From positions 1 to 52,019 of the IMG/VR virus record IMGVR_UViG_3300025669_000043: a stretch of 52,019 nt of DNA. One strand, written 5' to 3'. This DNA is from a virus. Shown here piece by piece: positions 5,847-39,184 of this stretch. The notes below the pieces were generated by a model. The model searched no databases, was not told the origin of the DNA, and saw nothing but the letters and a program-made list of their open reading frames with translations. Both the position numbers and the translations under genes were made by a program. Each line of letters begins with the position of its first letter. Position 1 is the first letter of the stretch.

Positions 5847-6201
5847 TCTCGCTACTCCTCACGCTCACTCGCTGCAGGCCCGCGCGGGTATTCTGCAGTG
5901 GCAAGACCATGTCGACAATCCAATCCTGTTCGTCTATCACGAGTAGGTCGGGCTGCTCATCCGTGTTCGTCGGCTTCACTTCAACGCTGGCCGGGAGCCA
6001 GACGGTGGCGCTCCGGGTTGCATGGTGGCCGTCAGGTGCGATAGCGCTTCCTTGCTGGCCGCGGTTTGAGTCGATGACCAGCCGGCCCTTGCACGTCTCT
6101 CTGAGTGCGTAGCCCGTGCGGACCACGCCAGAAGCGTCTTGTGTGTTCGCACTCCTATACACCTCGACAGTCGTCTTGAGCTTGCTGAGTCGGCGGCCCA
6201 T
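5836..6201 (-). CDS. Head closure / head-tail joining protein
   Basis: This 121-residue protein starts at ATG 6199-6201, overlapping the previous stop as TGATG. It is a small beta-barrel-like protein (TTVEVYRSANTQDASGVVRTGY, WIVDMVLPLQNTRAGLQRVSV), the signature of SPP1 gp16/HK97 head-closure proteins, which typically read 'V.v.r....d..G......'. It lies between the connector and the gp10-like gene, as in most siphoviruses. A longer frame open to 6291 would run into the connector gene and lacks a ribosome site. Confidence 0.68.
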   Translation of the reverse strand: MGRRLSKLKTTVEVYRSANTQDASGVVRTGYALRETCKGRLVIDSNRGQQGSAIAPDGHHATRSATVWLPASVEVKPTNTDEQPDLLVIDEQDWIVDMVLPLQNTRAGLQRVSVRSSESGS

Positions 6202-6788
6202 CACACCACCACCCGGGCGGGCTGATACCGCTCCAGCAACTCTTGGGTCGCGGGCCGCATGCCCTTGGCAACTGAGAACGTTTCTGTCCAATCGCCGATC
6301 TTGCTGTCAGTCAACACGTCGTCGCCGTCTTGTGACCGGCGCCGCTGGTTGTACCAGTAGGCCACCTCGGCAAGGAGCGTGCTCTTGATGACCGCGGGCA
6401 TGTCGTCGGCAGACCAGCCGGAGAAGCCTTCCACCTTGATCGTGCGCCGGCCCGCGTACCATGAGCCCGTCCACTTGCAGAGCCGCTGAGGGTCCATCAC
6501 ATCCCAAGTGTAGTCTTCATCGAATCCGTAGGTCAGCAGGTCGGTCGCGGCAAACGTGCGCCCAGAGCTTTGGTAGACCGCGCCGGGCGCTTCCGACAGA
6601 GGCCATGGCATGAACAAATCTTGCGCGCCGGAGCCGTCAATGTAGAACGTCACCGCCTCGCGGAACAGGGGACAGCGTACGAAGTCTCTGGCCGCCCGCT
6701 CCACGCCGTCGATCAGTTCGTCAACGTGGTCTGCTGCGTCGTCGTCAAGGTGCGTTCGCACTTCTGAGGCTGTGAGGATGTTTCCCAC
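6201..6788 (-). CDS. Head-tail connector (gp6-like adaptor)
   Basis: This 195-residue protein begins with LTASEVRTHLDDDAADHVDELIDGVERAARDF, the amphipathic helical start typical of phage gp6-like connectors. Those proteins form a ring under the portal. A central Trp/Tyr-rich beta region (DYTWDVMDPQRLCKWTGSWY) is followed by a helical LLAEVAYWYNQRRRSQDGDD segment and a C-terminal LLERYQPARV. It is the first head-tail gene after the glycosyltransferase block, which separates it from the capsid genes. Confidence 0.78.
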   Translation of the reverse strand: MGNILTASEVRTHLDDDAADHVDELIDGVERAARDFVRCPLFREAVTFYIDGSGAQDLFMPWPLSEAPGAVYQSSGRTFAATDLLTYGFDEDYTWDVMDPQRLCKWTGSWYAGRRTIKVEGFSGWSADDMPAVIKSTLLAEVAYWYNQRRRSQDGDDVLTDSKIGDWTETFSVAKGMRPATQELLERYQPARVVV

Positions 6789-6791
6789 GGG

Positions 6792-7097
6792 TCAACTCCC
6801 GATCATTTTGCGGAGGAGTTCCAAGGACGCTGTAGCTAAAACGGTCGCTGCGGCTCCGCCGCCGACCAGCAAGAGCTTGTCGAGCAACGAACTCCGGCCG
6901 CTGGACGTGGCGAGCTTCATCTCCGCCGCGCCGATGCGCTTCTCGTGATCTTCGCAGTGGGGTTCGCCACGGTTTTCAATCGTCCGGAGCCGGCCATCTT
7001 GCCCGCGCAGCTCCGACCACACCTGGTCCATGGCCGCGCGCTGCTCATCGCGTGATTCCATGACGGCAGCCAGGATAGTTTCGTTCGTTGCGGCCAT
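6792..7097 (-). CDS. Small membrane protein, XhlA/holin-like
   Basis: This 101-residue protein has an N-terminal helical, probably coiled-coil part (SRDEQRAAMDQVWSELRGQDGRL, then NRGEPHCEDHEKRI). One hydrophobic segment follows near the C-terminus (LLLVGGGAAATVLATASLELL), with a basic tail. This architecture matches hemolysin XhlA-like phage proteins that attach to the membrane during lysis. The gene lies between a glycosyltransferase and the connector gene, not in a recognisable lysis cassette, so a holin role is only a suggestion. Confidence 0.5.
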   Translation of the reverse strand: MAATNETILAAVMESRDEQRAAMDQVWSELRGQDGRLRTIENRGEPHCEDHEKRIGAAEMKLATSSGRSSLLDKLLLVGGGAAATVLATASLELLRKMIGS

Positions 7098-7109
7098 TGG
7101 CCTGCTTCC

Positions 7110-8129
7110 CTACAAGAGCGACTCGACACGCTGGCGGCACGCCGCATCGGAGTACCTGACCAGCTCTGCATCGGCATATTCGCACGCCTCTGTCCACCAC
7201 TCAGGATCGTCTAACAGTCTGGCTGTCGCTATCGCCATGCTCTCCACGTCGTACCATGGGAAGGAAAGCGTGGGCCAGAGCCGCTTGTGCGCCTCAAGGT
7301 GCTCTGCGCTCACTACGGGCACGCCAAGGGCCGCGGCCTCGACGCTCCACTGAGCCATGACCATGCGGCTCGTGGTACTCACGGAAGCCATGGCCTGGCA
7401 CGCCTGCTGCGAGAACGTTGCGTTGTCGCATGGGCGCTCGATCTGGATTCCATCGAAGCCGAGCGATGCCAAGCCGGCTACCACGGTCTCGGGTGCGTCC
7501 TTGTTTGCATAGCCCGTGGCCTGAACCTTGGGCTGCTTGCGGCCAGAGCGTAGGGCTTCAAGCCGCCGGAGTACCGCAGCGTGCGCAATCGTGCTCCGGT
7601 TGTCGACAACCCATCCCATGTGCTGTCCAAGCAAGAGCCTTGGGGGTGCTGCGCGTTCGGATCGCGGCAGGCGGTATTTGCGCATGGCGTCGACGTTCAC
7701 CGGGACTGGCATATACACGGCGGGCTTGCCGAACACCGGCTCATAGAATCGCCGGGCGCCTTCATACATGCAGCAGATCGCGTCGCAGGCTTGAGCCGCG
7801 GCGAAGTGCTGGGCAAGGTGGCGGGCCTCGCACTTCTCCCACCAACGGTCCAGGCAGCCATCGAATATCGCGATCTTGACCTTTGGGCAATGCTCTCGCA
7901 CGGCAATCGCCGCCTGAGCGCACTTGGGGGTCCATCCCCACTCCATCCAGACCATGTCATAATCGCGTAGCTGGCTGGCGTCAAATCTGCCTTCCGTGAT
8001 GTCAGTCCATCCGACGAAAAGGCACTTGCCCATGATGGTCGCGACACGGGGGAAGCCGCCAGTGACCACGGGGTCAAGCGACTTGATCTTAGGGCCGGCA
8101 CGTTCAACCAAAGCGGCAATCTTGAGCAT
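7110..8129 (-). CDS. Glycosyltransferase, GT-B fold (GT1/GT4-like)
   Basis: This 339-residue protein overlaps the upstream glycosyltransferase gene as TGATG. The N-terminal half has Rossmann-like strands (DYDMVWMEWGWTP, VKIAIFDGCLDRWW) and ACDAICCMYEGARRFYEP. The C-terminal half contains the donor-site pattern of GT-B enzymes: SVEAAALGVPVVSAEHLEAHKRLW, equivalent to E-x7-E/P-V-x-x-s of GT4. No signal peptide or membrane anchor is seen, so it is cytosolic. It is the last gene of a four-gene sugar-modification block inside the structural region; the substrate is unknown, and virion proteins are the natural candidates. Confidence 0.75.
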   Translation of the reverse strand: MLKIAALVERAGPKIKSLDPVVTGGFPRVATIMGKCLFVGWTDITEGRFDASQLRDYDMVWMEWGWTPKCAQAAIAVREHCPKVKIAIFDGCLDRWWEKCEARHLAQHFAAAQACDAICCMYEGARRFYEPVFGKPAVYMPVPVNVDAMRKYRLPRSERAAPPRLLLGQHMGWVVDNRSTIAHAAVLRRLEALRSGRKQPKVQATGYANKDAPETVVAGLASLGFDGIQIERPCDNATFSQQACQAMASVSTTSRMVMAQWSVEAAALGVPVVSAEHLEAHKRLWPTLSFPWYDVESMAIATARLLDDPEWWTEACEYADAELVRYSDAACRQRVESLL

Positions 8130-11050
8130 CAGCCTTCCCCCTTCAGTGCCCGAAGCGTCTCAGCCGCCCGGTCGTTTTGGCATCGGGCAACCTTGACGAT
8201 GTGCTCCCGAGTCGCGTCGCTCATAGCTTGCCAGTCGGCTTCGTCATCAAGCCGGAGCAGAGCATCAGATATATCGCCAGGGTCGGCGATGTTGCGGTCC
8301 AGCACAAGCTCTAGCTTCCCTGGCTCGTACGCGCACACGGGAGTCAAGTGGCTTCCGACAACCGGCGTCCCCGCGGCCATGGCGAAGGCTGCAGCATAAG
8401 AGAACGTCTCCCCAACACCGGCGGCCACGAAGGCTCGCACGGAGCCGAGCAGTTCCACGACGTCTGCGGCCTTTGGCATGTCAACCCACTCGATGTCCGG
8501 CCCCATCGTGCGGACCAGCATCCGCGCGGTCGTGGCGTCTTTCTGCAGCCACTTGGAGGCGATGATCTTGTATCCCGCCTGCCGCACGGCCAGCGCGATG
8601 GTACTTAGGTTTTTGCGCCCGCCAGCGGGGCCCAGCAGTGCAACCGCGCGCCGCCGTTCTTGGGCGCCCTTGATGGTATCGCGCATAGCCGGCAGCAAGC
8701 GGAAACTCAGGGCCTCAGGCATCCACATAGCCGACACGCCATAGGCGCGATGCCATGCGGGAGCCATGGGGCCGTAACTCGGAAGGAATGTCAAGCGCTC
8801 GCCAAGCTCGCCGGCAAGGTCAAGTGCGGAGTCAAAGGCGTTCAACTCTCGGGGGCTCAACTCCATCTGCAGGTTGTGGGAATGCCAGCTCAGCCCAACG
8901 GGGCAAGAGCAGGCCCGGGCCATGGCTGCATACTCAGGGTTCATGCCGCCGGCCAGCATCAGCGCTGCCGGGTTGCCGATGGCTTCCGGGGTGGCATCAC
9001 AAGAGTCTACGATCCGAACCCCTGTCGCTGCTGACAGGTGCGCCATGGCAGCCGACACGCCCGGGGCGCGCTCGGGGCAGACCACAACGATGCCACGGCC
9101 AGCAACCAGCGTCGCGGCCATCCGCGGGAGCACGGTCACCTCTGCGTTGCACCAGTCGAGCTTGCACTCCATCTCCGGGTGCTCGGCTTGCTGTGCGAGC
9201 ATGGACTTCAGGGCGTCCCGCCACACGCTCAGCGGGCAGTCGCGGCCGACGTCGAGCGGCACAACTCTGTCCATGTGCCCGGCGAAGCTGGGGAGGTTCC
9301 CCGAGTCGCTCAGCAGGAGTGGGATGCCGTTGGCCTTCGCCTCGGCACCGCATCGGCAGAACGTCTCTGCGGTTTTCGTGGCAATATACACGATCTTGGC
9401 CTTGGCGTAGACCGTGCGCATGTCAGTCACGCGGCCCCAGTCCTCGACGTTGGGGGCCGACTCGATCTTCTTGGCGATAGCCTTGACAGGTTTGCAGACG
9501 GCGAACCTTTCATCAGGGAAGGCCCTGGCCAGCTCCAAGAATGTCTCCGCTCCCTTCAAGGGAGATCCGTCAACGGCAACAATATACTCAGGCTTGCGGT
9601 CCGCGGTGGGCACAAGGATCGGCTCGGATTCGATCCGCGGCCACTCTACTTCGGCGCGGGGGAGGCACAGCGCCGCCGATACCTTGTCCGCGCAAAATTC
9701 GCTGTTGACGATCACGCCGTCAGATTCCCACAGCGACCGCACGCCGCCCTGGTCAAGCGTCTCGCCAAAGCGCTCCTCTGTCTCGGGATGGTGTAGAGCG
9801 TACCACTGTTCCTTCGTCTCGAATCGGGCGAAGCCGCGCCAGAATTGCATTCTCACGATTATGGGGATGCCAAGCTCCTGAGCCACAACGATCATCGGCT
9901 CCGTGGCAACCGTGGCGCGGCCGATGTTCATGCCGTCCACCACGATCATAATGTCAGGCAGCAGCTCCCGCACGCGGTTGCCGAGTTCTTTCCCGTCGAC
10001 GCGCTCGGCGTACTCTGGCAACGCGTTTCCGTCGCTGTCGTTCGTCACGACTACGCGCGTCTCAAAGCCAGCTTTCTCCAAGGCAAGGAGCCAGTGGGTA
10101 GAGCTGCGTTCGCCGCCGCCGAAGTCCACCGCGCCCTGCCATTTCACATGGCAAATCAGCGCCAGCGGCTTGGGGCGTAGTGGGCGGAGCTGCGTAGGCG
10201 CTACGGGTTGCTCTTGTGTGCCCCGTGGGCTTGCGTTGCCCCCGTCTTTGGGGGTAAGAGATACGGTCTTCGTCGTGAGGCCGTGTGCGGGCGTGGGGGC
10301 TTTTGGCTTCTCGACCACAACCTGCCGCTCAAAGGTGGGCATCTGCAGGACTTTGACGCCTGCCGGATCGTGGACGCCTTGCAGGCGAATCGACTCAGCA
10401 GCGCCGTTCTCGGCTTGCTTGTTGCCAGCGGTGTGCGTGATACCGCCCTTGTCCAGACAAACATCGTTCAGAATCACCGGGAGCCGCACGATGCCCTTGG
10501 CGTCAAGCACGGCCTCCATGCGCATGTAGAGCACCATGTCGCCGCCGGGGTAGGCCGTTGGCCAGCCGCCGGCCGCGGTGTAGAGCCAGCCACGGTATGC
10601 TGCCAGGCCAGCGGCATGGCATCGCTCCTGGAACGCCCAGGGCTTGTAGCTTGGCTTCGTCACGCGCAGCCGCTTGTCCGTCTCGGGGCTGTAGCTCTCA
10701 TAGTCACCGTAGACGAAACTCACAGACGGGTCTGAGAATGCCTTGCGGATCGCGTCCAGCGCTCCGGCATGGAGCGTGTCGTGATCGTCCAATTCAACAC
10801 ATACGGATCCGCTGAGCGGCAATCCAGCGTTTGCCAGTCGCCGCGCGTGGTTCACGCCGCGGTTCTGGGCCAGCACTGTCAGGCTGATCCTCAAGTCTTG
10901 TGGAAGCGTGGGAACGGGGCCGCCGTCAACCACGACGTTCAGCACGTCATCGTCGCCCATCTGCTCAAGACAGGCCGCGGCTTGCTTCGCCAACTCCTCG
11001 GGTCGGTCGTGGCTCGCAATGCTGATCCAGAGTCGAGGGGCGCTAGACAT
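8129..11050 (-). CDS. Triple-domain glycosyltransferase (GT-A plus two GT-B domains)
   Basis: The start is ATG 11048-11050, behind GGGGAGG and overlapping the methyltransferase stop by 8 nt; the product has 973 residues. Residues ~5-230 form a GT2-like GT-A domain (LWISIASHDRP, CVELDDHDTLHAGA with the metal-binding acidic motif, GDYESYSPETD). After a Pro-rich linker, ~300-650 is a GT-B domain (DFGGGERSSTHWLLALEKAG, GVIVNSEFCADKV, ETFCRCGAEAKANGIPLLLSD). Residues ~655-960 form a second GT-B domain (VALLGPAGGRKNLSTIALAV, GVGETFSYAAAFAMAAGTPV). Three catalytic modules in one chain could build a short glycan in sequence. The acceptor is not shown; the location in the tail/head gene cluster suggests a virion protein. 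Confidence 0.85.
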   Translation of the reverse strand: MSSAPRLWISIASHDRPEELAKQAAACLEQMGDDDVLNVVVDGGPVPTLPQDLRISLTVLAQNRGVNHARRLANAGLPLSGSVCVELDDHDTLHAGALDAIRKAFSDPSVSFVYGDYESYSPETDKRLRVTKPSYKPWAFQERCHAAGLAAYRGWLYTAAGGWPTAYPGGDMVLYMRMEAVLDAKGIVRLPVILNDVCLDKGGITHTAGNKQAENGAAESIRLQGVHDPAGVKVLQMPTFERQVVVEKPKAPTPAHGLTTKTVSLTPKDGGNASPRGTQEQPVAPTQLRPLRPKPLALICHVKWQGAVDFGGGERSSTHWLLALEKAGFETRVVVTNDSDGNALPEYAERVDGKELGNRVRELLPDIMIVVDGMNIGRATVATEPMIVVAQELGIPIIVRMQFWRGFARFETKEQWYALHHPETEERFGETLDQGGVRSLWESDGVIVNSEFCADKVSAALCLPRAEVEWPRIESEPILVPTADRKPEYIVAVDGSPLKGAETFLELARAFPDERFAVCKPVKAIAKKIESAPNVEDWGRVTDMRTVYAKAKIVYIATKTAETFCRCGAEAKANGIPLLLSDSGNLPSFAGHMDRVVPLDVGRDCPLSVWRDALKSMLAQQAEHPEMECKLDWCNAEVTVLPRMAATLVAGRGIVVVCPERAPGVSAAMAHLSAATGVRIVDSCDATPEAIGNPAALMLAGGMNPEYAAMARACSCPVGLSWHSHNLQMELSPRELNAFDSALDLAGELGERLTFLPSYGPMAPAWHRAYGVSAMWMPEALSFRLLPAMRDTIKGAQERRRAVALLGPAGGRKNLSTIALAVRQAGYKIIASKWLQKDATTARMLVRTMGPDIEWVDMPKAADVVELLGSVRAFVAAGVGETFSYAAAFAMAAGTPVVGSHLTPVCAYEPGKLELVLDRNIADPGDISDALLRLDDEADWQAMSDATREHIVKVARCQNDRAAETLRALKGEG

Positions 11051-11729
11051 GGTCCACCTCCCCTGCAATGCGAATAAGCGCGTGGTTCGGGCCTTCGCTT
11101 TCGACCTTGGCCCACGGCCTAACCCCGTCTCGCACGGCCTTGACCAGATGCCACGGGCCAAGCTCGGGGCTCTTGGTATCGTGCAAGCCGATCAAGCCGC
11201 CAGGGCGCACGAATGGGGCATAGGCTTGCCAGTCGCCGAACGCGCCCGCCTTGGTGTGGTCGCCGTCGATGTACAGAAAGTCTATGGAGCCGTCGACTGT
11301 TGCCACCACCGCGGCCACAACCTTAGGGTCCGTGCTTGGCCGGCCAAAGAACGCCGCTGAGTTGTTGCCCCACACGTCTGGCACCGCGTGCTTCTCCCAC
11401 ATGGCGCCGGTGGCGCCGACTCGCGCGGCCGGGCATTCCGGTATCACGAACCCAGGCTTGAGTTCCACCGTCACGAACAGCTCGCTGCAGAGCTGGCGGA
11501 ACAGCCGGTGCGTCCCGCCGTAACCGAAGCCGATCTCAAGACCGACCTTGGCGTCCAACGCGTCGAAGGCCTCCAGCACGGGCAGAATATCCTCACGCTC
11601 CTGCAGCAGCAGCGCCGTCGGCTTTGGCTTCACGCTCTCCGCTTCGCCAAGCGCTACAAGGCGCTCGACGTCTTTGCAGACATGCTCGAATCGAGTCATC
11701 CCAACTGGCCATCGGTCTCCGTTGCTCAT
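11043..11729 (-). CDS. Class I SAM-dependent methyltransferase (CmcI/Methyltransf_24-like)
   Basis: The start is ATG 11727-11729, overlapping the upstream stop as ATGA; 228 residues. Motif I is KVGLEIGFGYGGTHRLF. The later pattern IDFLYIDGDHTKAGAFGDW followed by FVRPGGLIGLHDT is characteristic of cephalosporin-hydroxylase/Methyltransf_24 enzymes, many of which O-methylate sugars or small hydroxylated substrates. It is wedged between glycosyltransferases and probably decorates the same glycan. An acceptor other than sugar is possible. Confidence 0.8.
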   Translation of the reverse strand: MSNGDRWPVGMTRFEHVCKDVERLVALGEAESVKPKPTALLLQEREDILPVLEAFDALDAKVGLEIGFGYGGTHRLFRQLCSELFVTVELKPGFVIPECPAARVGATGAMWEKHAVPDVWGNNSAAFFGRPSTDPKVVAAVVATVDGSIDFLYIDGDHTKAGAFGDWQAYAPFVRPGGLIGLHDTKSPELGPWHLVKAVRDGVRPWAKVESEGPNHALIRIAGEVDHV

Positions 11730-12568
11730 GCCCGGCCCCCTTCCTTCGCCAACGCCGCGGCCGTGTCGATGTTCCGCCGGAGCAGCCCATTCGCCGCGCC
11801 CTCGCGGACCAGTCGCCGCCACACGACGCGGTTCCACTCGCCGACGTAGGGGTCCCACACGCTACCCCAGTCGAGTAGGAAGCACTTCTGGCCAAGCTCA
11901 GGCCAGAGCTTGTGAATCATCACGCACGCGGCCATCCCCGCGCTGATGCAAACGCAATCCGCTTTCGTCGCCTCCACCGCAGCCAGTGTCTCCGCGACCA
12001 GCCGCTCGTGTTGCTCGTGTGCAAAGCGCTGGGGCACTTGCACAAAGCTGACCGGGTCAAGCACATTGTGGGGAAGCGTGCGCATATTCTCAGGGCCAAC
12101 GAGCACGCATCGGTGCTGGGCCAACGCATGGAGTACGGGGCCGAACTCACCGGCGTGGTTCAGGTTCTTGAGCGTGTCCATGTAGACCCACGGCACGTCG
12201 ACGCCCTTTTCCGCGCGGAAAGCATCATACGCCTTTTGCTGCCGCCCGCCACCATGGCCGTAGTAGTACGGCAGAGGCTCAGTCAGGCACTTCAGCAGGT
12301 CCGCTTGCAGGGCTTCGGTGTATGGGCTGCCATCGCAGTTCTTCAGCGCCCAGAACATGCCGCCCATCATAGCGTTGTACTCGCCGTCGCCGAAACGGCT
12401 TAGGGTCCACGGGCGCTCGCCAGCTTGGAGTCGCTTGATCCAATGCTCTGCCGGCACTTCGGCCCATAGAGAGGGGCTTGGGTACTCGGCCAGTTCCGCC
12501 CGCAACGTGTCGAGCGTCACGGGTTCAGATTGAGGCTCCGCCTCCGGTTTCTTTCTTCGCTTCGCCAT
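11726..12568 (-). CDS. GT-D/DUF1792-like glycosyltransferase
   Basis: The start is ATG 12566-12568 with AGGAG upstream; 280 residues. After a basic Pro/Glu-rich leader, residues ~55-75 read WTLSRFGDGEYNAMMGG, close to the 'SlsRfGDGEl' signature of the GT-D (DUF1792) glucosyltransferase fold. Later, CVCISAGMAACVMIHKL and CFLLDWGSVWDPYVG match that fold's second half (G.a...a..L...G....D.G). It is the first gene of the glycosylation block and is coupled to the methyltransferase. GT-D enzymes in bacteria extend O-glycans on serine-rich adhesins, which fits the Thr-rich tail protein of this phage. Confidence 0.68.
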   Translation of the reverse strand: MAKRRKKPEAEPQSEPVTLDTLRAELAEYPSPSLWAEVPAEHWIKRLQAGERPWTLSRFGDGEYNAMMGGMFWALKNCDGSPYTEALQADLLKCLTEPLPYYYGHGGGRQQKAYDAFRAEKGVDVPWVYMDTLKNLNHAGEFGPVLHALAQHRCVLVGPENMRTLPHNVLDPVSFVQVPQRFAHEQHERLVAETLAAVEATKADCVCISAGMAACVMIHKLWPELGQKCFLLDWGSVWDPYVGEWNRVVWRRLVREGAANGLLRRNIDTAAALAKEGGRA

Positions 12569-12584
12569 TCTGTCGCTCCTACTG

Positions 12585-14183
12585 CTAAGACAGGTCACTC
12601 GCAACAACGATCAAATCCCATTTCAACGGTCGCTCGCTTAGGCTGGTAGTCGCCAGGCGAATCTCAAGCCGCCCGTCGTCAAGAGCCGTCGCCATGTTTG
12701 CGGCAGTCAGCCGGCACCAGAATGTCCCGGTCGCTATGTCATCAAGATTGAAGCTGGCGTGCTCGACCGTGTACAGCTCATCGCCGTTCGCCTCGGATGA
12801 CCGGAGCGTGATGGTGTATGCCGTGAGGTCAACTTCCGCGGCGTCCACCTGGGCAGTGAACGTGAGCTTCGGGGTAGTGTTCTGATCGAGCTTGAGCTTG
12901 CCGCTCACCTGGTCATACGGATCGTGCTCGATCTCGACTGTCATGGTCAGGCCGGCCTCGGAGACGCTGGCGGCATTCACTGCCCGCGTAAGGGTGCGCT
13001 TGGAGCGCGTCCAAAACGCGTTCTTGAGCGCAAGGAGCAGGGCAACGCCAATGTCACCCGTGTATTCCCAAACCGCCTTGGCGATGGTCGCTGGCGTGGC
13101 GCCGCTGCCAGCGTTGCTGATGCTCTCGCCGACAGTGTTCGCGATCTTGTGATCGGCCTGGGCCACGTCAAGCACAGCGACGCCAGTCTGGGCTGCGTTC
13201 AGGGGCGCCACAGCGTTGCGGCTGCTCACCTTGGCGTCGAGCCGCGCCAGCCGCGCCTCGGTGCAGACATCGGCGTCCGCGATGTCGCCGCCGGGGAGCT
13301 TGCCGTTGATGGCTTCCAGCTTCACGCGGTCCGCCGCGGTGAAGTCCACCGCGGTCGTGTCAACGACGATGCTCGCCGCGGAATACTCAGTCGTCACGCC
13401 GCCCTCCGTGGCATCGGCCTTGAACACAATGCCCTCGATGGCGTGGTCGCTGGCTACGTTGTAGTCGACATAATAGATGCCAGTGGACGCCGCCTGCTTC
13501 GTGACGGCATCGAGGTTCGCAGACCTGTCTACCGAAGCATTGTTCTCGGCAGTGACTGTGGGGTTGCAGTCGAGGTCTTCGGCTTTGTGCTGCTCGTTGT
13601 ACGCGTAGATCCACACGCGGTAGGGCGTGCTCCCAGAGTCGGGCCGCTCCATCTGAGGAGCGGGGAGGACTCTGACTCGGCACGCCTGCGTGATGCCCTG
13701 CACGTCGGCCTGGCTCGCCACGTTGCCGCCCACGTTGAGGTTGGCGATATAGCCCGCAAGAGCCGCGGTCCATTGCGCGGTCGAGAGCGCCGTCGCCGCG
13801 GGCGCGGCGCTCTTGGCCGCGTCGTAGGCCGCGGCCAGTGCGAAGTTGGCCTTGTCGGTCAGCGCCCGCGTCCCGTGTGTCTCCCAGAGGTAGGTCGCCA
13901 CGTCGGCAAGGGATAGCGTCGGGATGTGCAGCGGGAACACCACGGTGTCATCGGTGCTGCTCGATCCCTCGACCGTGACAAAGTCCGCGTCCATCTCGTC
14001 CGCAGTGAGTAGGAGCGAGTATTCGCCGTTCTCCTCCTCACTGGGCGAGTTGGTCGCCGCGGCCGCGGTCCCGTCCGCGATCACGCGCATGGTCAGGTTG
14101 TCCGCGTCGCCGGTGCGCGGTGCGTTGCCGTCGGTGTTCCAGACGGTGAAGGTGACGGTGAGTGCTTGGTCCTTGATGGGCAT
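12585..14183 (-). CDS. Structural/baseplate-type protein (BppU-like N-terminus)
   Basis: This 532-residue protein is translated from a TGATG overlap with the ConA-like gene. The first ~100 residues (ALTVTFTVWNTDGNAPRTGDADNL, NGEYSLLLTADEMDADFV) resemble the immunoglobulin-like N-terminal modules of baseplate upper proteins and other phage surface proteins. A middle Ala-rich helical part (AAAYDAAKSAAPAATALS, then WTAALAGYIANLNVGG) is followed by a second beta module at ~410-525 (KLTFTAQVDAAEVDLTAYTITLRS, GTFWCRLTAANMA). No enzymatic motif is visible. It is likely a virion surface component and a possible glycan acceptor. Confidence 0.65.
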   Translation of the reverse strand: MPIKDQALTVTFTVWNTDGNAPRTGDADNLTMRVIADGTAAAATNSPSEEENGEYSLLLTADEMDADFVTVEGSSSTDDTVVFPLHIPTLSLADVATYLWETHGTRALTDKANFALAAAYDAAKSAAPAATALSTAQWTAALAGYIANLNVGGNVASQADVQGITQACRVRVLPAPQMERPDSGSTPYRVWIYAYNEQHKAEDLDCNPTVTAENNASVDRSANLDAVTKQAASTGIYYVDYNVASDHAIEGIVFKADATEGGVTTEYSAASIVVDTTAVDFTAADRVKLEAINGKLPGGDIADADVCTEARLARLDAKVSSRNAVAPLNAAQTGVAVLDVAQADHKIANTVGESISNAGSGATPATIAKAVWEYTGDIGVALLLALKNAFWTRSKRTLTRAVNAASVSEAGLTMTVEIEHDPYDQVSGKLKLDQNTTPKLTFTAQVDAAEVDLTAYTITLRSSEANGDELYTVEHASFNLDDIATGTFWCRLTAANMATALDDGRLEIRLATTSLSERPLKWDLIVVASDLS

Positions 14184-14830
14184 CAGATGCCTCCGATCGC
14201 GTCAAACATGAATGCCGGCGGCACGGCAGCCGCGCCGGCTTCGCCGAGGTCGAGGTTGGCTACCCAGCCCGAGGCCGTCAGCGCGGCATGGCCGCTGTCC
14301 CAGCTCGTGGCCACCTGTCCCCATTGCCAGCGCCGACCGGTCGGAATCGAGATTGCGAGTGTGTCCAGCAATACCGTTCGCGCGGCATTGCTATAGAGCT
14401 CGAGCTGTATCGTCGTTTCGTCAGGCCGCAACAGCCGAGCGTAGTAGGTCGTGTTGAGACTGAAAGACGCGTAAATGTCGTGTTCGGGTGTTTCAAACTC
14501 GCTCAGATAGATTGTGGACGCGGCCGCGTAGAGTCGCACCATGATGACTTGTGTGGGGCGCCCGGCATACCAGCTATAAACGTCGTCCCTGGAGTTGGTC
14601 AGTGCATAGACAGTGGGCGAGCCCTCCGCACTAACCGCGGTCTGGCAGAACTCGAAATCATGCGAGAACGGTGGGGCGAACGAACCCACACCAAAATCGC
14701 GCCACGCATAAGTCGTCTCGGCACGAGTCAGGCCTGTGTAGGTGATTCGGTTAGGCGTCTCAGCCGCGACGCTCAGATGGCCAAGTGGGTTGACCAGAGT
14801 CCAATCGTCGTGGAAGTTCTGGTTAGCCAT
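14183..14830 (-). CDS. ConA/LamG-like structural protein
   Basis: The start is ATG 14828-14830 behind CAGGAGG; 215 residues. The beta-sandwich pattern (DFEFCQTAVSAEG, TIYLSEFETPEHDIYASFSL, NTTYYARLLRPDETTIQLEL, LLDTLAISIPTGRRWQWG) matches ConA-like lectin/LamG modules. A clearly similar segment occurs in the N-terminal domain of the giant tail protein at the window start, so the two are paralogous modules. It is likely a carbohydrate-binding or decoration protein on the virion. Confidence 0.68.
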   Translation of the reverse strand: MANQNFHDDWTLVNPLGHLSVAAETPNRITYTGLTRAETTYAWRDFGVGSFAPPFSHDFEFCQTAVSAEGSPTVYALTNSRDDVYSWYAGRPTQVIMVRLYAAASTIYLSEFETPEHDIYASFSLNTTYYARLLRPDETTIQLELYSNAARTVLLDTLAISIPTGRRWQWGQVATSWDSGHAALTASGWVANLDLGEAGAAAVPPAFMFDAIGGI

Positions 14831-15158
14831 TGCAGACCTCCTGCCAGTCGATGGCGAACTCGGGTGCGTCGTCGGGCAGGGCACGCACAGCCACGGTGAC
14901 CGCGCCGGCCTCGGCGTCGGGCATGGGCATGCCGTCGGCATCGAGCACTACTGGCCAGGCCCGCTCGGCACGCCATGCGAGGCGCGCCTGAACAATGGCC
15001 GTCGAGCGCGGCTGGAACGTCTCGCGCTCCCACACGCGCCACGCGGCCACGTCGGCCGCGGACCGGCGGTTGTGCTCGCGGCGCAGACTCTCGCGGCAGC
15101 ACTCGATCCAGCGCAGCCGCTGCCAGAGATCTAAGTTTTCGGGGATGATGAGTTGCAT
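14823..15158 (-). CDS. Small protein of the structural cluster, unrecognised
   Basis: This 111-residue protein overlaps the ConA-like gene by 8 nt. The N-terminal half is strongly basic and helical (LDLWQRLRWIECCRESLRRE, then HNRRSAADVAAWRVWERE). The second half has strands (AGAVTVAVRALPDDAPEFAIDW). No transmembrane segment. Function is unknown; position suggests a virion or assembly component. Confidence 0.6.
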   Translation of the reverse strand: MQLIIPENLDLWQRLRWIECCRESLRREHNRRSAADVAAWRVWERETFQPRSTAIVQARLAWRAERAWPVVLDADGMPMPDAEAGAVTVAVRALPDDAPEFAIDWQEVCNG

Positions 15159-15241
15159 GGTTGGGTTGCTCGGGACGGCGCGTTACCCGCCGCCGCCCCG
15201 AGCGCTCCTATAGGAGGTTGCTGTCGCAAGTTCAGTCGACG

Positions 15242-15376
15242 CTACGAGCCGCTGCCGTCGAGCGTCCCGCCGCACTCAGTCACGAGCGCATCGGGCACCG
15301 CTGGCAATGGCACAGGCTGGCCGGTCAGGCCCGCGCTGATAACTGCGCTTGGGTCTAGTGTGATGGCGATGGTCAT
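15242..15376 (-). CDS. Possible 44-residue small protein
   Basis: A short frame from ATG 15374-15376 to TAG 15242 encodes MTIAITLDPSAVISAGLTG and then a Pro/Gly-rich end with TECGGTLDGSGS. The ribosome site is weak. It fills the gap between the tRNA and the preceding small structural gene and has gene-like third-position GC. Function is unknown. Confidence 0.35.
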   Translation of the reverse strand: MTIAITLDPSAVISAGLTGQPVPLPAVPDALVTECGGTLDGSGS

Positions 15377-15408
15377 GCGTCTACTCAGTAGGGGTTGCCG
15401 TCTCGGAA

Positions 15409-15479
15409 TGGCAGGGGCGGGAGTCGAACCCGCATGGGCGGCTCATGAAGCCGCTGAGTGGCCGTTACTCTACCCTGCT
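15409..15479 (-). tRNA. tRNA with CAT anticodon (Met/Ile2-type)
   Basis: 71 nt fold as a cloverleaf. The acceptor is AGCAGGG/CCCTGCC with an unpaired A1-C72. The D stem is GAGT/ACTC with a 7-nt loop; the anticodon stem is GCGGC/GCCGC with loop TTCATGA (anticodon CAT). The variable loop is CCAT, the T stem GCGGG/CCCGC with loop TTCGACT, and the discriminator is A. CCA is not encoded. The mismatched 1-72 pair is an initiator-like feature, but the anticodon stem lacks the GGG/CCC pairs of initiators, so the identity (Met, fMet or lysidine-modified Ile) is open. It lies alone among structural genes and is presumably processed from the late transcript. Confidence 0.85.
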
Positions 15480-15538
15480 AAATTGCCCCCGAGCCGTGTG
15501 GCCCGGAGGCGTCGTCTAGGAGAACGCCGCATCGGCGG

Positions 15539-15742
15539 TCAAGGCTCGAAAGCTAAGACCACCGTCTTGGCCGCTGTGGGAATATTCTTAGTCGCCTGTC
15601 GAATCTGCACCGCACTGCCGGCGCTGATTAGATCGTGCGCAACGTGCTCGGGCACGGTCGCCTCTTGGCCCATCGCCAGCTTGCCAGGCACAAGCGTGTG
15701 GCCGTCGTTGCGGAGCATTCTGATTGTCGCCTGTCCAGCCAT
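15539..15742 (-). CDS. Small protein downstream of capsid gene, unrecognised
   Basis: The start is ATG 15740-15742 with AAGGAG at ideal spacing; 67 residues. A beta-like N-terminus (MAGQATIRMLRNDGHTLVPG) is followed by PEHVAHDLISAGSAVQIR and a short C-terminal tail ending LAFEP. It resembles small domains that follow capsid genes in HK97-type phages, but I cannot assign a family. It lies between capsid and tRNA. Confidence 0.6.
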   Translation of the reverse strand: MAGQATIRMLRNDGHTLVPGKLAMGQEATVPEHVAHDLISAGSAVQIRQATKNIPTAAKTVVLAFEP

Positions 15743-15809
15743 GGCAACTCCTTCCAAAACAAGGGCGCTGGCCAGGCGCTTTAGCAACGCCCAGCCAGCG
15801 TCAACGGGC

Positions 15810-17189
15810 TCAGTAGGTGATGCCAGTGCCAACCACGAACGCGTCCGTGTGCGTGACGTGCCCACCAAAGCGCTCGGAGAAGACCATGTCGACCTGCTTC
15901 TGCCGGGCGATGGTCTGAGTGACCAACTTCACCCCATGGTTGCGATACACGCGGTAACGCTTGAGGTCGCCGATCAGGCAGTTGCCTTCCGCGATCCGGT
16001 CATCCTCGGCAAAGTCCGGAAGACCCAGGATTTCGATGTGCCGATACGTGGTCGCCAAGTCCGCCGCGAAGGCAAAGAACGTCTTCGTCGGCATCAGGCT
16101 CGACGCGCGCCGGCGGTAGCGCTGAGGGATGGTCTGGAACAGTGTGAGGAACTGGGCCACGGTGAAGGCGCCGGTGACTGCCGTGTGCCTGATGTCCGTG
16201 TTCGGCAGAATGCCCTTGCATTCCTTGTATGTGTCACCACGCCCATACAGGATTTCCCAGTCGCGGTTGTCGGCAAAGACTTCCGAGGCTGCCATGTTGA
16301 CTTCCCGCATGATGTTCACGGGCGAGTCGTCGAGCAGTTGGAACGAGGCCTTGTAGTACGCGTCGGCATCGAAGATGGCCCACGTTTGATCGTCGTAGGT
16401 CAGAGCGGTCTCAGTGACTTCGGCGAGTTCTGCCGCCGCGGCAGTGCCCTTGTTCACAGCGCCCGGCGTGTTGCGCACGGGTCGGGTGACCGTCTTGCTC
16501 TTGGTCGTGCGAATGTCGCACTTCGGCCAGACGATGATCAATTCCGCCATGCCCTTGATGATTTCCATGGTCTCGTCGTCGGGCACCAAGACGCCACCGG
16601 CAGAGTCGACGGACTCCTTGAGCGCTTGGCAGACCACTTCGTCTGCAGCCGCTTCCGCGGGCATCGCTTGGCCGCGGCTCATGTTGCACATGCTCAGCAG
16701 GAACAGACCGGCCTGTCCCGCGGTGAGCTTGCCTTCAAACCCAATGGGGTCATTGGGCAGATAGGCCATCTCGATGGGCCGGCCAGCACGCTCTTCGGCG
16801 GCGATGGGCTTGGTCAGCCGCTCCTTGCGCATCAGGTCCATCATCTCGGTCTTGATCGTCTCCGGCAGTTTGTCCATGGCCTCTTCGCTTCGGGTGAGCA
16901 CGGACGCGAGCAGGGCCAACTCCGCCTTGCTCTGAGTGCCAAACTGGGCAATCAACTGATCCGCCTTTGAGGGCCGGTTGTCGAGAGCCGCATCAGCCGC
17001 CGCGTCCGCCGCGACACCAGCCGCGTCGCCAGCGGGGGCGCCGGCCGCGTCACCGGCCGCCGCATCGGCCGCGGGGGCATCACCAGCTTCGGCTTCCACC
17101 AACTCGCCAAGGCCTTGGGCGATGATGGTCTGGGCATCTGCCAGGTTCATCTCCACGACCTTGCCGCCAATTTTCACGTTCACTTTCAT
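15810..17189 (-). CDS. Major capsid protein, HK97 fold
   Basis: This 459-residue protein overlaps the protease stop (TGATG). Residues 1-70 are a short beta start followed by an Ala/Asp/Gly low-complexity tract (GDAPAADAAAGDAAGAPAG), and ~75-130 form a helical delta-like scaffolding region expected to be removed by the protease. The core (~190-459) has HK97 landmarks: SAGGVLVPDDETMEIIKGM, an N-arm/E-loop region with TYDDQTWAIFDADAYYKASF, and a spine-helix segment SPVNIMREVNMAASEVFADN. It continues with WEILYGRG, GILPN and ends HVTHTDAFVVGTGITY. Gene order portal-protease-capsid is canonical. Confidence 0.93.
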   Translation of the reverse strand: MKVNVKIGGKVVEMNLADAQTIIAQGLGELVEAEAGDAPAADAAAGDAAGAPAGDAAGVAADAAADAALDNRPSKADQLIAQFGTQSKAELALLASVLTRSEEAMDKLPETIKTEMMDLMRKERLTKPIAAEERAGRPIEMAYLPNDPIGFEGKLTAGQAGLFLLSMCNMSRGQAMPAEAAADEVVCQALKESVDSAGGVLVPDDETMEIIKGMAELIIVWPKCDIRTTKSKTVTRPVRNTPGAVNKGTAAAAELAEVTETALTYDDQTWAIFDADAYYKASFQLLDDSPVNIMREVNMAASEVFADNRDWEILYGRGDTYKECKGILPNTDIRHTAVTGAFTVAQFLTLFQTIPQRYRRRASSLMPTKTFFAFAADLATTYRHIEILGLPDFAEDDRIAEGNCLIGDLKRYRVYRNHGVKLVTQTIARQKQVDMVFSERFGGHVTHTDAFVVGTGITY

Positions 17190-18790
17190 CAGTCTGTGTC
17201 CTTTCGGTCTGACTTGCCGGCCTCGTGCACCTCGGCGAACACTTCACGCATTCGCGCCCGTGCATCGCGGGCCATTTCGGAAACACGCTGGCTCATCTGG
17301 GCCACGGCGACCATGATACGGCGCTGCATTCTCATCCTGTGGGCCTGGGCTGCCAGGGCCAAGGAGTCGAGTTCAGCATCCGTCAACGGCGGCGGGGGCT
17401 TGGGGGGACCAGCAGCAGCCAGCGAGCTGAGTCCCTGCTTGACCTGCGACGACAGCGCGGCAGGCGGCTCGACCGGTTCTGGCGGAGCCTCTGGGGGTTC
17501 TTCGGTTTGGATCGTCACCACGGGCTGGCCGGGCACGATGATTTCGCCCTTGGCGGCCAGCTCGGAGAGTTCGTCTTGCGTATATGCGCGCCACTCGGGG
17601 ACTTCCATGTCGGCTTCGGCATAGTGCGCGGCCAGGTGGGCATGGCCCTTGGCTCGCTCCGCGTCCAGCACGGATTGGTAGCCGCCACGCGCTCCGAGCA
17701 GCACGCCCATGCAGCGCCGGGTCGCGTCGGGGGCCATGTCACCATCATCCGCGTGATGCACGCCCTTCACGTCGTCGCCACGGGCAAACAGCGCCAAGGC
17801 CGCGCCGTCGCTGTGGGCTGTGGCAAGCCATTCCGTAGGGGGCTCTGTAGGCTCTTGACCCTGGCCTTGGGGGGGAAGGGTAGCCTGGGCCGTCGGCGGC
17901 TCTGGGAGGGGCTGTTTTGGGGCGTTTGGGGTAGGCGTGGCCATTGGGGGGAGCGCCGATTCGATGCCCTGGCGTACGAACTGCAGGCCATCGGGGTTGT
18001 CTGGCTCCGCGTAGGCCTGCACGGTGGGTGCCGGCATGGCCGCTAGCCGCTCCTCAGCATTGGTCAAGGCCATGCGAAGGCCGCCGTCCGCGTCTGTCTC
18101 AGTCGCCCACTCTGGCGCGGGCTGGGGCATCTTGGTCTCGACTTCGCGAGTCTCTGCGTCGCCCGTCTCTGGTACAACGTCCCCTGCAGCGTCCCGGGTT
18201 ACCCGGCGCACGGCGCTGATAAGCGCGTCCTCGTCTGCCCCGAGCGTTACTACGCTGATCTCGTTGAGCAGCGACTTAATGGCCCGCAGACCGATCCGCT
18301 TGCCGTCGTCATCCTCGACCGGCTCGCCTTCCTTGATGTGGAACGCGATACTGATGGCCTTGAGGATGCCCCGCTCGATTTGAGTCCATGCGTCCCCGAG
18401 CTGATCCATCCAGAGTGGCGACACCATGGCGCGGGCCGCCACGTAGTCCTCCGTGATGGCCAACTCGACCACTTCGCCGATGGGCACGATGTAGCTGGCG
18501 TGCTGGTAGAGCAGTACGGGGTTCTTCACGAACCGGGTCAGGTCCAGGCCCTTCGGCTCAAAGAATATACCCGCGCCGTTGACCTTTTCGTTTCGGGTCA
18601 CCGCGACAAACTCAATCTCAAGCCACTCGCCGGCCTTGTCCCCGAGGCTCTGGCGGACAAAGGCGGGGGGAGGAGTCGACGGTTGGAGCGACAAAGCCGC
18701 CGGCCCCTCCTTGCCCGCTGGGACCGATGCTTGCGGTAGGGCTGAGGTCGCGCGCTGGTCCCACTGTTTCCGAGAATATTTGTGCTTCAT
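17189..18790 (-). CDS. Prohead (HK97-type) maturation protease with long C-terminal scaffold-like tail
   Basis: The start is ATG 18788-18790 (ATGA overlap with the portal gene); 533 residues. Residues ~45-220 form a U35/S78-type protease domain: FVAVTRNEKVNGAGIFFEP, NPVLLYQHASYIVPIGEVVEL with the conserved His region, and GILKAISIAFHIKEG followed by LNEISVVTLGADEDAL. The remaining ~300 residues are Pro/Ala/Glu-rich and end in a helical basic region (MRMQRRIMVAVAQMSQRVSE). That tail is unusually long; a scaffolding function fused to the protease is likely, since no separate scaffold gene is seen. Confidence 0.88.
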   Translation of the reverse strand: MKHKYSRKQWDQRATSALPQASVPAGKEGPAALSLQPSTPPPAFVRQSLGDKAGEWLEIEFVAVTRNEKVNGAGIFFEPKGLDLTRFVKNPVLLYQHASYIVPIGEVVELAITEDYVAARAMVSPLWMDQLGDAWTQIERGILKAISIAFHIKEGEPVEDDDGKRIGLRAIKSLLNEISVVTLGADEDALISAVRRVTRDAAGDVVPETGDAETREVETKMPQPAPEWATETDADGGLRMALTNAEERLAAMPAPTVQAYAEPDNPDGLQFVRQGIESALPPMATPTPNAPKQPLPEPPTAQATLPPQGQGQEPTEPPTEWLATAHSDGAALALFARGDDVKGVHHADDGDMAPDATRRCMGVLLGARGGYQSVLDAERAKGHAHLAAHYAEADMEVPEWRAYTQDELSELAAKGEIIVPGQPVVTIQTEEPPEAPPEPVEPPAALSSQVKQGLSSLAAAGPPKPPPPLTDAELDSLALAAQAHRMRMQRRIMVAVAQMSQRVSEMARDARARMREVFAEVHEAGKSDRKDTD

Positions 18791-21279
18791 CTTCCTGTCT
18801 CCGGTGGTACGGCCACGGCGTTGCAGTTGCAGTGACAGTTCTCTTTCGGGGAGCCGCCCATTCCGGGGAAGCTCATGCTGTCCGCTCCGACGTGGAATCG
18901 CTGACCGTTGCCGCGCACCTGGCCGTCTGCGGAAATATGGGTGTCTCGGCTGTTGACGAACGAACACACCCACTGCTTGTACAGCACCTCGTGTTCATCC
19001 CTGAAGGCCTGCGCGCCGGCGTTCCACATCTTGGTGGACTCAGTCACGGCGATGTTGGCTGGCCGCCCGTGGTCTGGGTCAAGCCAGGAATCGAAGCGCA
19101 CCTCAAGGTCGCCTCGTATCTGTCTCAGCGTGCGTCGCTCCACCATGCCCCGGAGCACCACGTCCTTGATTGCGTTCTGGTCAGTCTGCGCCGGCCCCGC
19201 CCAGTAGGCCTCCGTCCATGAGGAGGCATATTCCCGTGCCGCTTGGCTTTCAAACGTAAACGCCGGAAGCGCCACGTCATACAGCTCCCGCTGGAACTCG
19301 CCGCCGATGACGATGCCACGGGCCACGAACGGCTCAGCAAGCTGACTCAGCTCTGCCGCCGCGGTCTCGGGGTCGGTCGCCGCTGCCAGCATCTTGTCAA
19401 CGATCTCGGCTTCCGTGTCCTGCCGCACCAACCACAGCCCCCCTGCGCTCCACTGCCACCCTCCCCCCATTAGCACATCGCCAGCCAGCGTCCCGATGGC
19501 TGAACGGGGCAATAGAGACCACTCCAGCCCTTGCATAATAGTGCCCTCGGGGTCGTCGGAGAAGTGGGCATCCCACGACTGCAAAAAGCGCTTGGCAAAC
19601 TGCTTCCAGTAGGATCGGATTCCAACGTTCAACTCGGCTCGGAAGGCCTCCCGGCTCTGGTCGGCAAGCTGACTGATGCGTAGGCGCTGCTCCCGTGTCC
19701 AGCCGCGCGGGTAGCCCTCCGAGTCGGCACGCTGGGCCACTACAGCTACGGGGGCCGGGAGTTCCTTCTGAGCCAACAATGGCTTAGGCATGTCGGTGAC
19801 AAAGCCGCCCTGTGGGCAGGCATTGGGATTGTCCGCGAGCGCAGCCACCGCCGTCTCAAGCATCGCTTCCACGACGCTGCTCTCCATGCCGGCGGCCCGT
19901 CCTTCATCGGCCAGGGCATCCAAATATGCCTGGCGCTTGCCGTTGTCGCTTGAGCCGCTACTGTCAGAATCAGCCCCACCATTGCCGACCATGTCAACGG
20001 GCTGCACGCCAGTTGGCGGCCACCACTTGTCACCCCACGGGTAAGTCTGCCAGCCGTTCTCTGCTGCAATTTCATTCCACGGCGCTCCATTTTTCAGCCG
20101 AAATTCGAGTTCCTTGAGTTCCGCTTCTCTGTCTTTCGGTGTCGGGTTGTCGTGCGCGAGCCGAACCCGCCGGCCATAGTTGGGCCGCACAAGATCGTGG
20201 TTCAGCCGGGCGTCAAATATCACGACCAGCGGGCCGAAGTGATACTTGCTGAAAATATACTCAGCGCCCTCGACGTTCGCCTTGCTCGTGTCCCGCGTGA
20301 TGCCCGTTAGAGATTGGGGCACGCCCATCACGCCAAGGACAAGATCGCGGGCCTCCTCGTTCAGACCACGGAATGCAATGGGCGCTTTGTTCGTGAGTTC
20401 CTTCCACTCGGCACGCCCCATGGGCAGGCCAATGACTTCGCCAGCCTTGCGCGCCCCCTCGTGCTTTAGCTTGATCGCATCGAGCCAGGCTTTCCTTTTT
20501 ACCTCGTCGTCTTCCTTGAGCATCACCACGGCGCTGGCCATAGCGCCTTGGGTCATGGTCCAGTACTGCGCGTCGACCACCACGGCTGCCAGGTTGACCC
20601 CGGCCGCGGCGGCCTGCTCCCGACCGAAGCCTTGCCGCAAATCCTTCGGGTGGGGAGCGACGAAGTGGACTATCTCGTCAGGTTCAAATTCGACCTTGAC
20701 CATACCCGTGACGGTGGCAAGACTGTACGTCCACTTCGTGACATGGACCCGGAAGTCGGCGGAGTCAAACGTGGGTCGCATGTTCTGGCTGGGCAGTGGC
20801 CACAGTGCCTTGACCCGGCCTCGGGTGCTGCGCTCGATGTACCAGTATGCATCGCCACACGTAAGGATATACGCGGTGGCAAGCCAGAGCATTTCCTCAG
20901 TCGTCAGGAACGGGTTGGGCTTCTCAAGCAGGGCGCACAGGTCGTGGTCTTCCGTGTCCAGCCATTCCGACTTGCCCGTCTTGCGATTGACCTTGCGCTC
21001 CTGGACTTTGATCGGGCTTCCGACCATGGCGCCGGCAAAGACGTTCACCGCGGCATAGGCCCAGCCGGCCAGCCCTCGCACAGCCGCGGCCTCGCTCAGC
21101 TTGCGCCCCGCCCCGTCGCCCGTGTAGGCGTTGCCCGCGGTGGCCGTGTTGATGCCGCTCGCCTCGAAGATCGGGAGAAGATCGTCAAGGTTCTGAGTCA
21201 CTAAGTCGACAATGCCCCGGGTCTGCTTTGGCAGAATCGCCGCCCCGAGCCGCTGTCTTAGGTTCGCCAGCATCGCCAT
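18787..21279 (-). CDS. Portal protein fused to MuF-like head morphogenesis domain
   Basis: This 830-residue protein is about twice the usual portal length. Residues ~50-430 form an HK97-type portal: AVNVFAGAMVGSPIKVQER, LWLATAYILTCGDAYWYIER, EIVHFVAPHPKDLRQG, and LVLGVMGVPQSLTGITRDTSKANVEGAEY, a hallmark segment (residues split here for brevity at TSKAN). Residues ~560-830 form a MuF-like domain (TESTKMWNAGAQAFRDEHE, VNSRDTHISADGQV, CHCNCNAVAVPP). It is the first late gene, with CAGGAG upstream of ATG 21277-21279. The portal forms the DNA entry vertex; MuF domains are minor head components. Confidence 0.9.
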   Translation of the reverse strand: MAMLANLRQRLGAAILPKQTRGIVDLVTQNLDDLLPIFEASGINTATAGNAYTGDGAGRKLSEAAAVRGLAGWAYAAVNVFAGAMVGSPIKVQERKVNRKTGKSEWLDTEDHDLCALLEKPNPFLTTEEMLWLATAYILTCGDAYWYIERSTRGRVKALWPLPSQNMRPTFDSADFRVHVTKWTYSLATVTGMVKVEFEPDEIVHFVAPHPKDLRQGFGREQAAAAGVNLAAVVVDAQYWTMTQGAMASAVVMLKEDDEVKRKAWLDAIKLKHEGARKAGEVIGLPMGRAEWKELTNKAPIAFRGLNEEARDLVLGVMGVPQSLTGITRDTSKANVEGAEYIFSKYHFGPLVVIFDARLNHDLVRPNYGRRVRLAHDNPTPKDREAELKELEFRLKNGAPWNEIAAENGWQTYPWGDKWWPPTGVQPVDMVGNGGADSDSSGSSDNGKRQAYLDALADEGRAAGMESSVVEAMLETAVAALADNPNACPQGGFVTDMPKPLLAQKELPAPVAVVAQRADSEGYPRGWTREQRLRISQLADQSREAFRAELNVGIRSYWKQFAKRFLQSWDAHFSDDPEGTIMQGLEWSLLPRSAIGTLAGDVLMGGGWQWSAGGLWLVRQDTEAEIVDKMLAAATDPETAAAELSQLAEPFVARGIVIGGEFQRELYDVALPAFTFESQAAREYASSWTEAYWAGPAQTDQNAIKDVVLRGMVERRTLRQIRGDLEVRFDSWLDPDHGRPANIAVTESTKMWNAGAQAFRDEHEVLYKQWVCSFVNSRDTHISADGQVRGNGQRFHVGADSMSFPGMGGSPKENCHCNCNAVAVPPETGR

Positions 21280-38568: not shown

Positions 38569-39180
38569 TTACTGCGCCGCAAGGGGGTTGCGAAGCGTGT
38601 TGAAGGCTTGATCGGTCACCCCGAACTCCGGCTTCTGGGTCGTGTTCGTGCGCATCCCGACCGCCACCGCGAAGGGCTCCGTCGCCGCCATGCAGGCCGG
38701 GCCTGTCCAGCCGGAGGCTTCCATCTCGACTTCGCCTGTCCGGCTTATCTCAAACTGGATCGTGCACTCTGTGCCGGCCATCCCGGCCACCTGCCCGGTG
38801 AGTGGCTTGGCGATGATGCGCTTGCCGCCCTCCGCCGTGTCGGTCGCGGTCAAGGCGAACCCACGGGCCGCGGCCTGGGCGCGGATGCCGGCCATGGCAT
38901 AGCCCACCTTCAGGGCGTTGACGGCTGGCCTGACCGCTTCATCGTAGTCATCAAACTCCACCTCGAAGGAGCCGTCGTCTTGGCGGACAAGGCCAAGCTC
39001 ATAACCGCGCTTGCTGTCGGCGATGCTGATCGCGTGGTCACATTTGCTCTCGGTTCCATACCAGCGATACGTCTTCTGGTCCGCGCAGAATACCAGGCCC
39101 GCGCCGGCGATTTCTTGGCACGCTGCCTTGATCTGCTCGATGTTCCGGAACTGGATTTCCAACTTACTGACGTGGGACAT
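38569..39180 (-). CDS. DUF1257 (Ycf35-like) protein
   Basis: The start is ATG 39178-39180 behind AAGGAG; 203 residues. The N-terminus MSHVSKLEIQFRNIEQIKAA matches the 'MSHft.i.t.i.d...L..al' start of DUF1257, and YAMAGIRAQAAARGFALTAT fits the conserved 'YA...v...a...Gf' region. DUF1257 genes are known to travel with Ycf46-like AAA+ ATPases in plastids, cyanobacteria and phages; here that ATPase is ~0.8 kb upstream. The molecular role is unknown. Confidence 0.72.
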   Translation of the reverse strand: MSHVSKLEIQFRNIEQIKAACQEIAGAGLVFCADQKTYRWYGTESKCDHAISIADSKRGYELGLVRQDDGSFEVEFDDYDEAVRPAVNALKVGYAMAGIRAQAAARGFALTATDTAEGGKRIIAKPLTGQVAGMAGTECTIQFEISRTGEVEMEASGWTGPACMAATEPFAVAVGMRTNTTQKPEFGVTDQAFNTLRNPLAAQ

Positions 39181-39184
39181 TTCG

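Follow-up and report, generated by a model that had tools for sequence, protein, structure and literature searches.

The four genes at 7110-12568 of the 52,019-base window, which is the entire IMG/VR virus record IMGVR_UViG_3300025669_000043, probably constitute a late-expressed virion-glycosylation cassette that likely builds a methylated sugar chain on a protein of the phage's own particle. The type of cassette is already known from mycobacteriophages; the one described here is a variant with a GT-D-type glycosyltransferase and a three-domain glycosyltransferase. New here is the presence of distant relatives of the GT-D protein in glycan blocks inside or next to the head module of eight other environmental phage groups, two of which carry the block in the capsid-to-connector slot.

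Matches to capsid, protease, portal and tape measure proteins identify the window as a tailed phage, which by our own reading is probably siphovirus-like. The late genes lie on the minus strand (as do all features of the window given below with coordinates), with capsid, protease and portal at 15810-21279. Each of the four block genes, which run from 12568 to 7110, has an ATG start, and neighbouring genes share 4 nt (ATGA), 8 nt and 1 nt (TGATG) at the successive junctions; the head-to-tail layout with overlapping stops that was described in the initial annotation is thus correct, and the genes form a translationally coupled run. The slot is bordered upstream by the gene for an HK97-type major capsid protein (15810-17189; PF05065 E 2e-28, phrog_10 E 3e-24). 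From there, in transcription order, a 111-aa ORF, the genes for a 252-aa and a 532-aa protein, the block, and a 101-aa ORF (6792-7097), which has a hydrophobic C-terminal segment by hydropathy and no family match in Pfam/PHROGs profile searches, lead to the head-tail adaptor, or connector (6201-6788; phrog_442 E 3.4e-17). Whilst the connector side of the block is as first annotated, the upstream neighbours had been called baseplate-type, and neither the 532-aa nor the 252-aa protein matched a baseplate family; a role as head fibre or decoration is more natural for both, since they are placed after the capsid. A tRNA-Met (CAT) lies at 15408-15480, between the capsid gene and these two head-proximal genes.

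The usual gene order of HK97-type phages is the basis for calling the block inserted; the searches turned up no relative whose site is empty. No close relatives of the window were recovered from a collection of 50,697 phage records by megablast or by tblastn with the four block proteins, nor by IMG/VR peptide-pattern scans (with the 973-aa protein, the GT-D protein alone, the capsid, the fourth gene and the radical SAM fusion) or a contig profile search using the GT-D alignment. Composition gives no sign of a recent foreign acquisition, as the GC content of the block (63.5%) and its codon usage (r 0.92-0.97) match the remainder of the genome. We interpret the ORFs on the complementary plus strand of this region as shadow frames of high-GC DNA.

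The first gene of the block (11726-12568) encodes a 280-aa protein with a DxE motif, RFGDGE, at residues 58-63. It falls below the gathering score of both GT-D Pfam profiles of the PF08759/PF22882 pair (PF22882: E 0.0017, 18.2 versus 27 bits; the second profile: 11.6 versus 27 bits) and below the NCBIfam GT-D_rel cut-off (16.9 versus 75). Relatives gathered by a pattern scan for RFGDGE[FY] and an alignment search are distant, with 24-29% identity across some 200 residues, and keep the acidic motif in the alignment. An AlphaFold model from a seven-sequence alignment (pLDDT 80, pTM 0.83) matched the DUF1792 GT-D structures 4pfx and 4phr in Foldseek (E 1-2e-6, prob 1.00, TM about 0.5; 14% identity over the fold alignment); at E <= 0.001 it had no other match in the PDB. 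The GT-D assignment, although under the Pfam cut-off, is therefore confirmed by the predicted fold, and sugar transfer is predicted from this fold together with the DxE motif. Matches in BFVD place GT-D-like folds also in multidomain methyltransferase/glycosyltransferase proteins of a giant virus (Homavirus).

The second gene (11043-11729) encodes a 228-aa SAM-dependent O-methyltransferase of the Methyltransf_24/CmcI-like type, which scores over the cut-off of PF13578 (E 1e-10; 42.7 versus 26.3 bits), has intact GLEIGFGYGG, DGDH and HD motifs, and weakly matches PDB 6g7d; by family it would be a sugar-type O-methyltransferase, so that the glycan could be methylated, as had been proposed. The 973-aa product of the third gene (8129-11050) has a GT2/GT-A-like domain (residues about 1-240) followed by two GT-B domains. 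PF13692 (Glyco_trans_1_4; E 7e-12, 46.2 versus 27 bits) and PF00534 (Glycos_transf_1; E 6e-8, 32.9 versus 26.4 bits) each match two stretches above the cut-off; PF00535 is sub-threshold over the GT2 domain (14 versus 23.3 bits), which nonetheless carries DDHD (88-91) and GGD (169-171) in the correct order. The first GT-B domain (about 300-690) has an intact EX7E motif (E562/E570), whereas the second (about 690-973) reads EX7F, its second Glu being replaced by Phe. In NCBIfam, the GT-B domains come nearest to families of lipid- or polysaccharide-type enzymes, with every score far short of its cut-off.

The assignment of the fourth gene (7110-8129; 339 aa) to GT-B is possible, and we treat it as unproven: a C-terminal EAxxxGVPVV motif speaks for it, but no profile in any library scored above the cut-off (Glyco_trans_1_4 E 0.16, Glyco_trans_1_2 E 0.31), a single-sequence model was uninformative (pLDDT 40), and hhalign aligned only 16 columns with a phage GT-B protein. 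A suspected likeness to a protein in one of the environmental blocks (L018/L006) was not supported. The enzyme classes first proposed are hence upheld for the methyltransferase and the GT-B stretches of the 973-aa protein by Pfam, and for GT-D by fold. At least six catalytic sugar domains had been counted in the phage; four are comparatively firm, and two, the second GT-B domain and the fourth gene, are doubtful and may be inactive or something else. The loss of acidic residues, named at the outset as evidence against catalysis, affects the second GT-B domain, the residues being intact in the GT-D, GT2, first GT-B and methyltransferase domains.

Relatives of the GT-D protein were scored with a local HMM (the pattern biases the selection, yet most E-values reach far beyond the motif), and their surroundings were read from PHROGs matches and the gene order of ORFs. 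In eight further contig groups they lie in glycan-enzyme blocks within or beside the head module. The slot of the window recurs in L012/L024, where an MptE-like gene, a GT-D and methyltransferase, a GT2 and a further glycosyltransferase stand between capsid and head-tail adaptor, and in L018/L006, where glycosyltransferases including GT-D stand between capsid and tail completion genes. The block follows the portal and adaptor in L004/L022 and the portal (phrog_113) in L045; it lies between terminase and portal in L047, as does the GT-D gene in L003/L044/L029 (with a PHROG portal match in L003, and none for L044 and L029), beside terminase and portal, in part on the opposite strand, in L002/L021/L023, and immediately upstream of the terminase in the L010 group. 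The exception is the lineage L013/L041, in which GT-D is beside a gp32-like gene and not head genes. As the relatives in L011, L016, L026, L032 and L038 are unplaced and that in L046 is placed by our own reading, these cases document recurrence, not a rate. The blocks of the L012, L018, L045, L047, L010, L004, L003 and L023 groups resemble that of the window in combining GT-D with methyltransferases and glycosyltransferases in or beside the head module, but differ in slot, gene order and partners, which include TOD1_MUCI70, Methyltransf_24, MptE-like, GT2 and sulfotransferase-like proteins. In L046, a 110-kb contig, a long glycan block at 9983-20618 holds by our own reading GT-D, GT2, methyltransferase, DegT-like and GDP-mannose-dehydratase-like genes, and this phage may make its own sugar nucleotides.

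The closest described arrangements come from mycobacteriophages. Corndog (cluster O) carries an O-methyltransferase (gp35) and glycosyltransferases (gp36-38) between portal and protease, from which its authors suggested that methyl groups and glycans modify the capsid in a complex way (PMC4351075). Glycosylated proteins in Che8, Corndog and Myrna were reported later, and gp38 was termed essential for capsid glycosylation, according to Freeman 2023 as cited in PMC12363180. The window has the same layout of O-methyltransferase and glycosyltransferase genes inside the structural module, and Corndog shares with it the number of four genes, one of them an O-methyltransferase, within the virion structural operon (PMC4351075); the slots differ (portal-protease in Corndog, capsid-adaptor here), and the GT-D and three-domain enzymes distinguish the window's cassette. 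In the cluster J phages Omega, Thibault and LittleE, 8-10 genes, including many glycosyltransferases and methyltransferases, lie between capsid and connector, their target then unknown (PMC3706429). This is the slot of the window, and a two-domain glycosyltransferase is likewise present, but the insertion is larger and has kinase and peptidase-like genes, and GT-D is not mentioned (PMC3706429). Tblastn of the four block proteins found no match in the 50,697 phage records; the comparison with Corndog and Omega relies on published descriptions. For GT-D itself, DUF1792 transfers glucose to the glycan on the adhesin Fap1, extending a protein-linked O-glycan (PMC5063993). The window's protein shares with dGT1 of this Streptococcus Fap1/SRRP system the fold with its acidic motif and would likewise extend a protein-linked glycan; in dGT1 the substrate is a bacterial adhesin and GT-D is fused to GT-A.

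The virion is favoured as the target because the genes form an overlapping run in the head module with no sigma-70-like promoter at 6000-16000 (a consensus scan, which may not suit this organism), because the GT-D fold is that of DUF1792, an extender of a protein-linked glycan, because the O-methyltransferase is of a sugar-type family and catalytic motifs are intact, because GT-D relatives recur in blocks inside or next to the head modules of eight other contig groups, and because similar cassettes occupy the head modules of Corndog, with its reported virion glycosylation, and of cluster J. That no base-hydroxylating enzyme was matched among the about 45 proteins scanned, and that none of the four block proteins has a strongly hydrophobic segment, points the same way. 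Against this reading stand the two doubtful domains, the relatives without poly-Thr proteins, the L013/L041 lineage, and a terminator-like hairpin at 15800-15766, just after the capsid gene, which is the sole strong one on the minus strand in 6000-16000 by the same kind of consensus scan and due to which block and capsid gene may be transcribed separately. The initial proposal that the enzymes act on virion proteins thus gains from late-module placement and, by analogy, from Corndog, with the acceptor remaining a candidate.

In the mechanism that we propose, the block genes would be made along with the head and structural proteins, and a first sugar would be transferred to Ser or Thr in some exposed protein of the virion; this initiation may fall to the 973-aa protein, through its GT2 domain, or else to a separate radical SAM-GT2 protein. 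Further sugars from host nucleotide-sugar pools would then be added singly by the GT-D, GT2 and GT-B domains, and the Methyltransf_24 enzyme would cap the chain by O-methylating a sugar. Such a coat would protect the particle or adjust how it attaches. Likely acceptors are the upstream 532-aa protein (12585-14183; 10.7% Thr), a putative head fibre or decoration protein that matches phrog_1084 (E 0.009, unknown function) and has no PDB match, the 252-aa protein (14183-14941; also 10.7% Thr), which has no family match in Pfam, PHROGs or NCBIfam profile searches, the capsid, or a mucin-like tail protein. The first two, whose genes precede the block in the same run, are as plausible acceptors as the last.

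This last candidate is a 902-aa protein (49133-51841), probably a tail protein, with CxxxC repeats and a mucin-like Thr/Pro-rich C-terminus in which 23 Thr fall within 40 residues, so that the Thr-rich protein of the initial annotation is real; it also weakly matches the radical-SAM-target family TIGR04117 (E 0.058). Its gene overlaps that of a radical SAM/SPASM-GT2 fusion away from the block (46266-49160). The radical SAM part resembles thioether-forming maturases of the PapB/SCIFF-like type (PapB E 4e-33, PDB 5wgg E 8e-10) and lies under the curated NCBIfam cut-off; the glycosyltransferase part contains the motifs DxH and WGxGE, and the GT2 enzymes that it matches include, weakly, polypeptide GalNAc-transferases. 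Taken together, 46266-51841 possibly encodes a RiPP-like and mucin-type modification of a virion protein. A narrower form of virion glycosylation, in which the fusion initiates on this tail and the block extends and methylates, can be put forward with low confidence: the Thr/Pro-rich C-terminus with its CxxxC repeats, the overlapping genes, the motifs and weak GalNAc-transferase matches of the fusion and up to six glycosyltransferase domains in total fit it, but the two loci are far apart in the genome. In addition, no poly-Thr run occurs in eight records with GT-D relatives, and three that were read throughout (46-47 kb) have only moderately Ser/Thr-rich proteins; a block of this kind hence needs no poly-Thr tail. 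Such blocks without a Thr-rich virion protein, which the initial annotation had counted as contrary evidence, are thus encountered in part. As the phages concerned are unrelated to that of the window and may use another acceptor, this weakens the case for the Thr-rich tail protein without weakening virion glycosylation as such. It is doubtful that both parts of a broader statement hold jointly, namely that the phage builds on its own tail a mucin-type glycan that is methylated and holds several sugars, with the fusion cross-linking the CxxxC repeats and initiating on Thr and the block extending and capping, and that the head modules of environmental phages have acquired GT-D glycan blocks repeatedly and separately.

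In the main rival to virion glycosylation, which we consider unlikely, the enzymes modify the envelope of the infected host, whether its lipopolysaccharide, capsule or wall polymer, for instance to exclude other phages, and the head module serves only as a tolerated cargo site. Phage glycosyltransferases are often so interpreted, as in pelagimyophages (PMC7029224), the nearest NCBIfam neighbours of the GT-B domains would suit such a role, and the slots vary between phages. However, by hydropathy none of the four proteins has a strongly hydrophobic segment, no flippase, polymerase or nucleotide-sugar enzyme was seen, late expression would come late for envelope remodelling, and the Corndog precedent favours the virion. 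Glycosylation of hypermodified bases in the phage DNA against restriction, of which virus-encoded glycosyltransferases are capable (Pyle 2024 as cited in PMC12619734), is very improbable and was rejected since no enzyme supplying a hydroxylated base (thymidylate-synthase-like or TET/JBP) was matched among about 45 proteins scanned; moreover, the enzyme that GT-D matches acts on a protein glycan.

Among phages, a few mycobacteriophages are documented cases of virion glycosylation. That GT-D glycan blocks lie inside or next to head modules in nine dissimilar contig groups, with no cultured-phage matches for those tested, suggests that phage particles with a sugar coat may be common in nature, which would bear on phage attachment, particle stability and recognition. 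A phage GT-D gene adjoining terminase, portal, capsid or connector offers a search signature for further cases. Elsewhere in the window, the two exons of an AAA ATPase gene (39996-42510) are separated by a group I intron (RF00028, 40686-41474) that carries an HNH gene, and a DUF1257-DUF2997 fusion (38569-39267) adjoins the ATPase gene.
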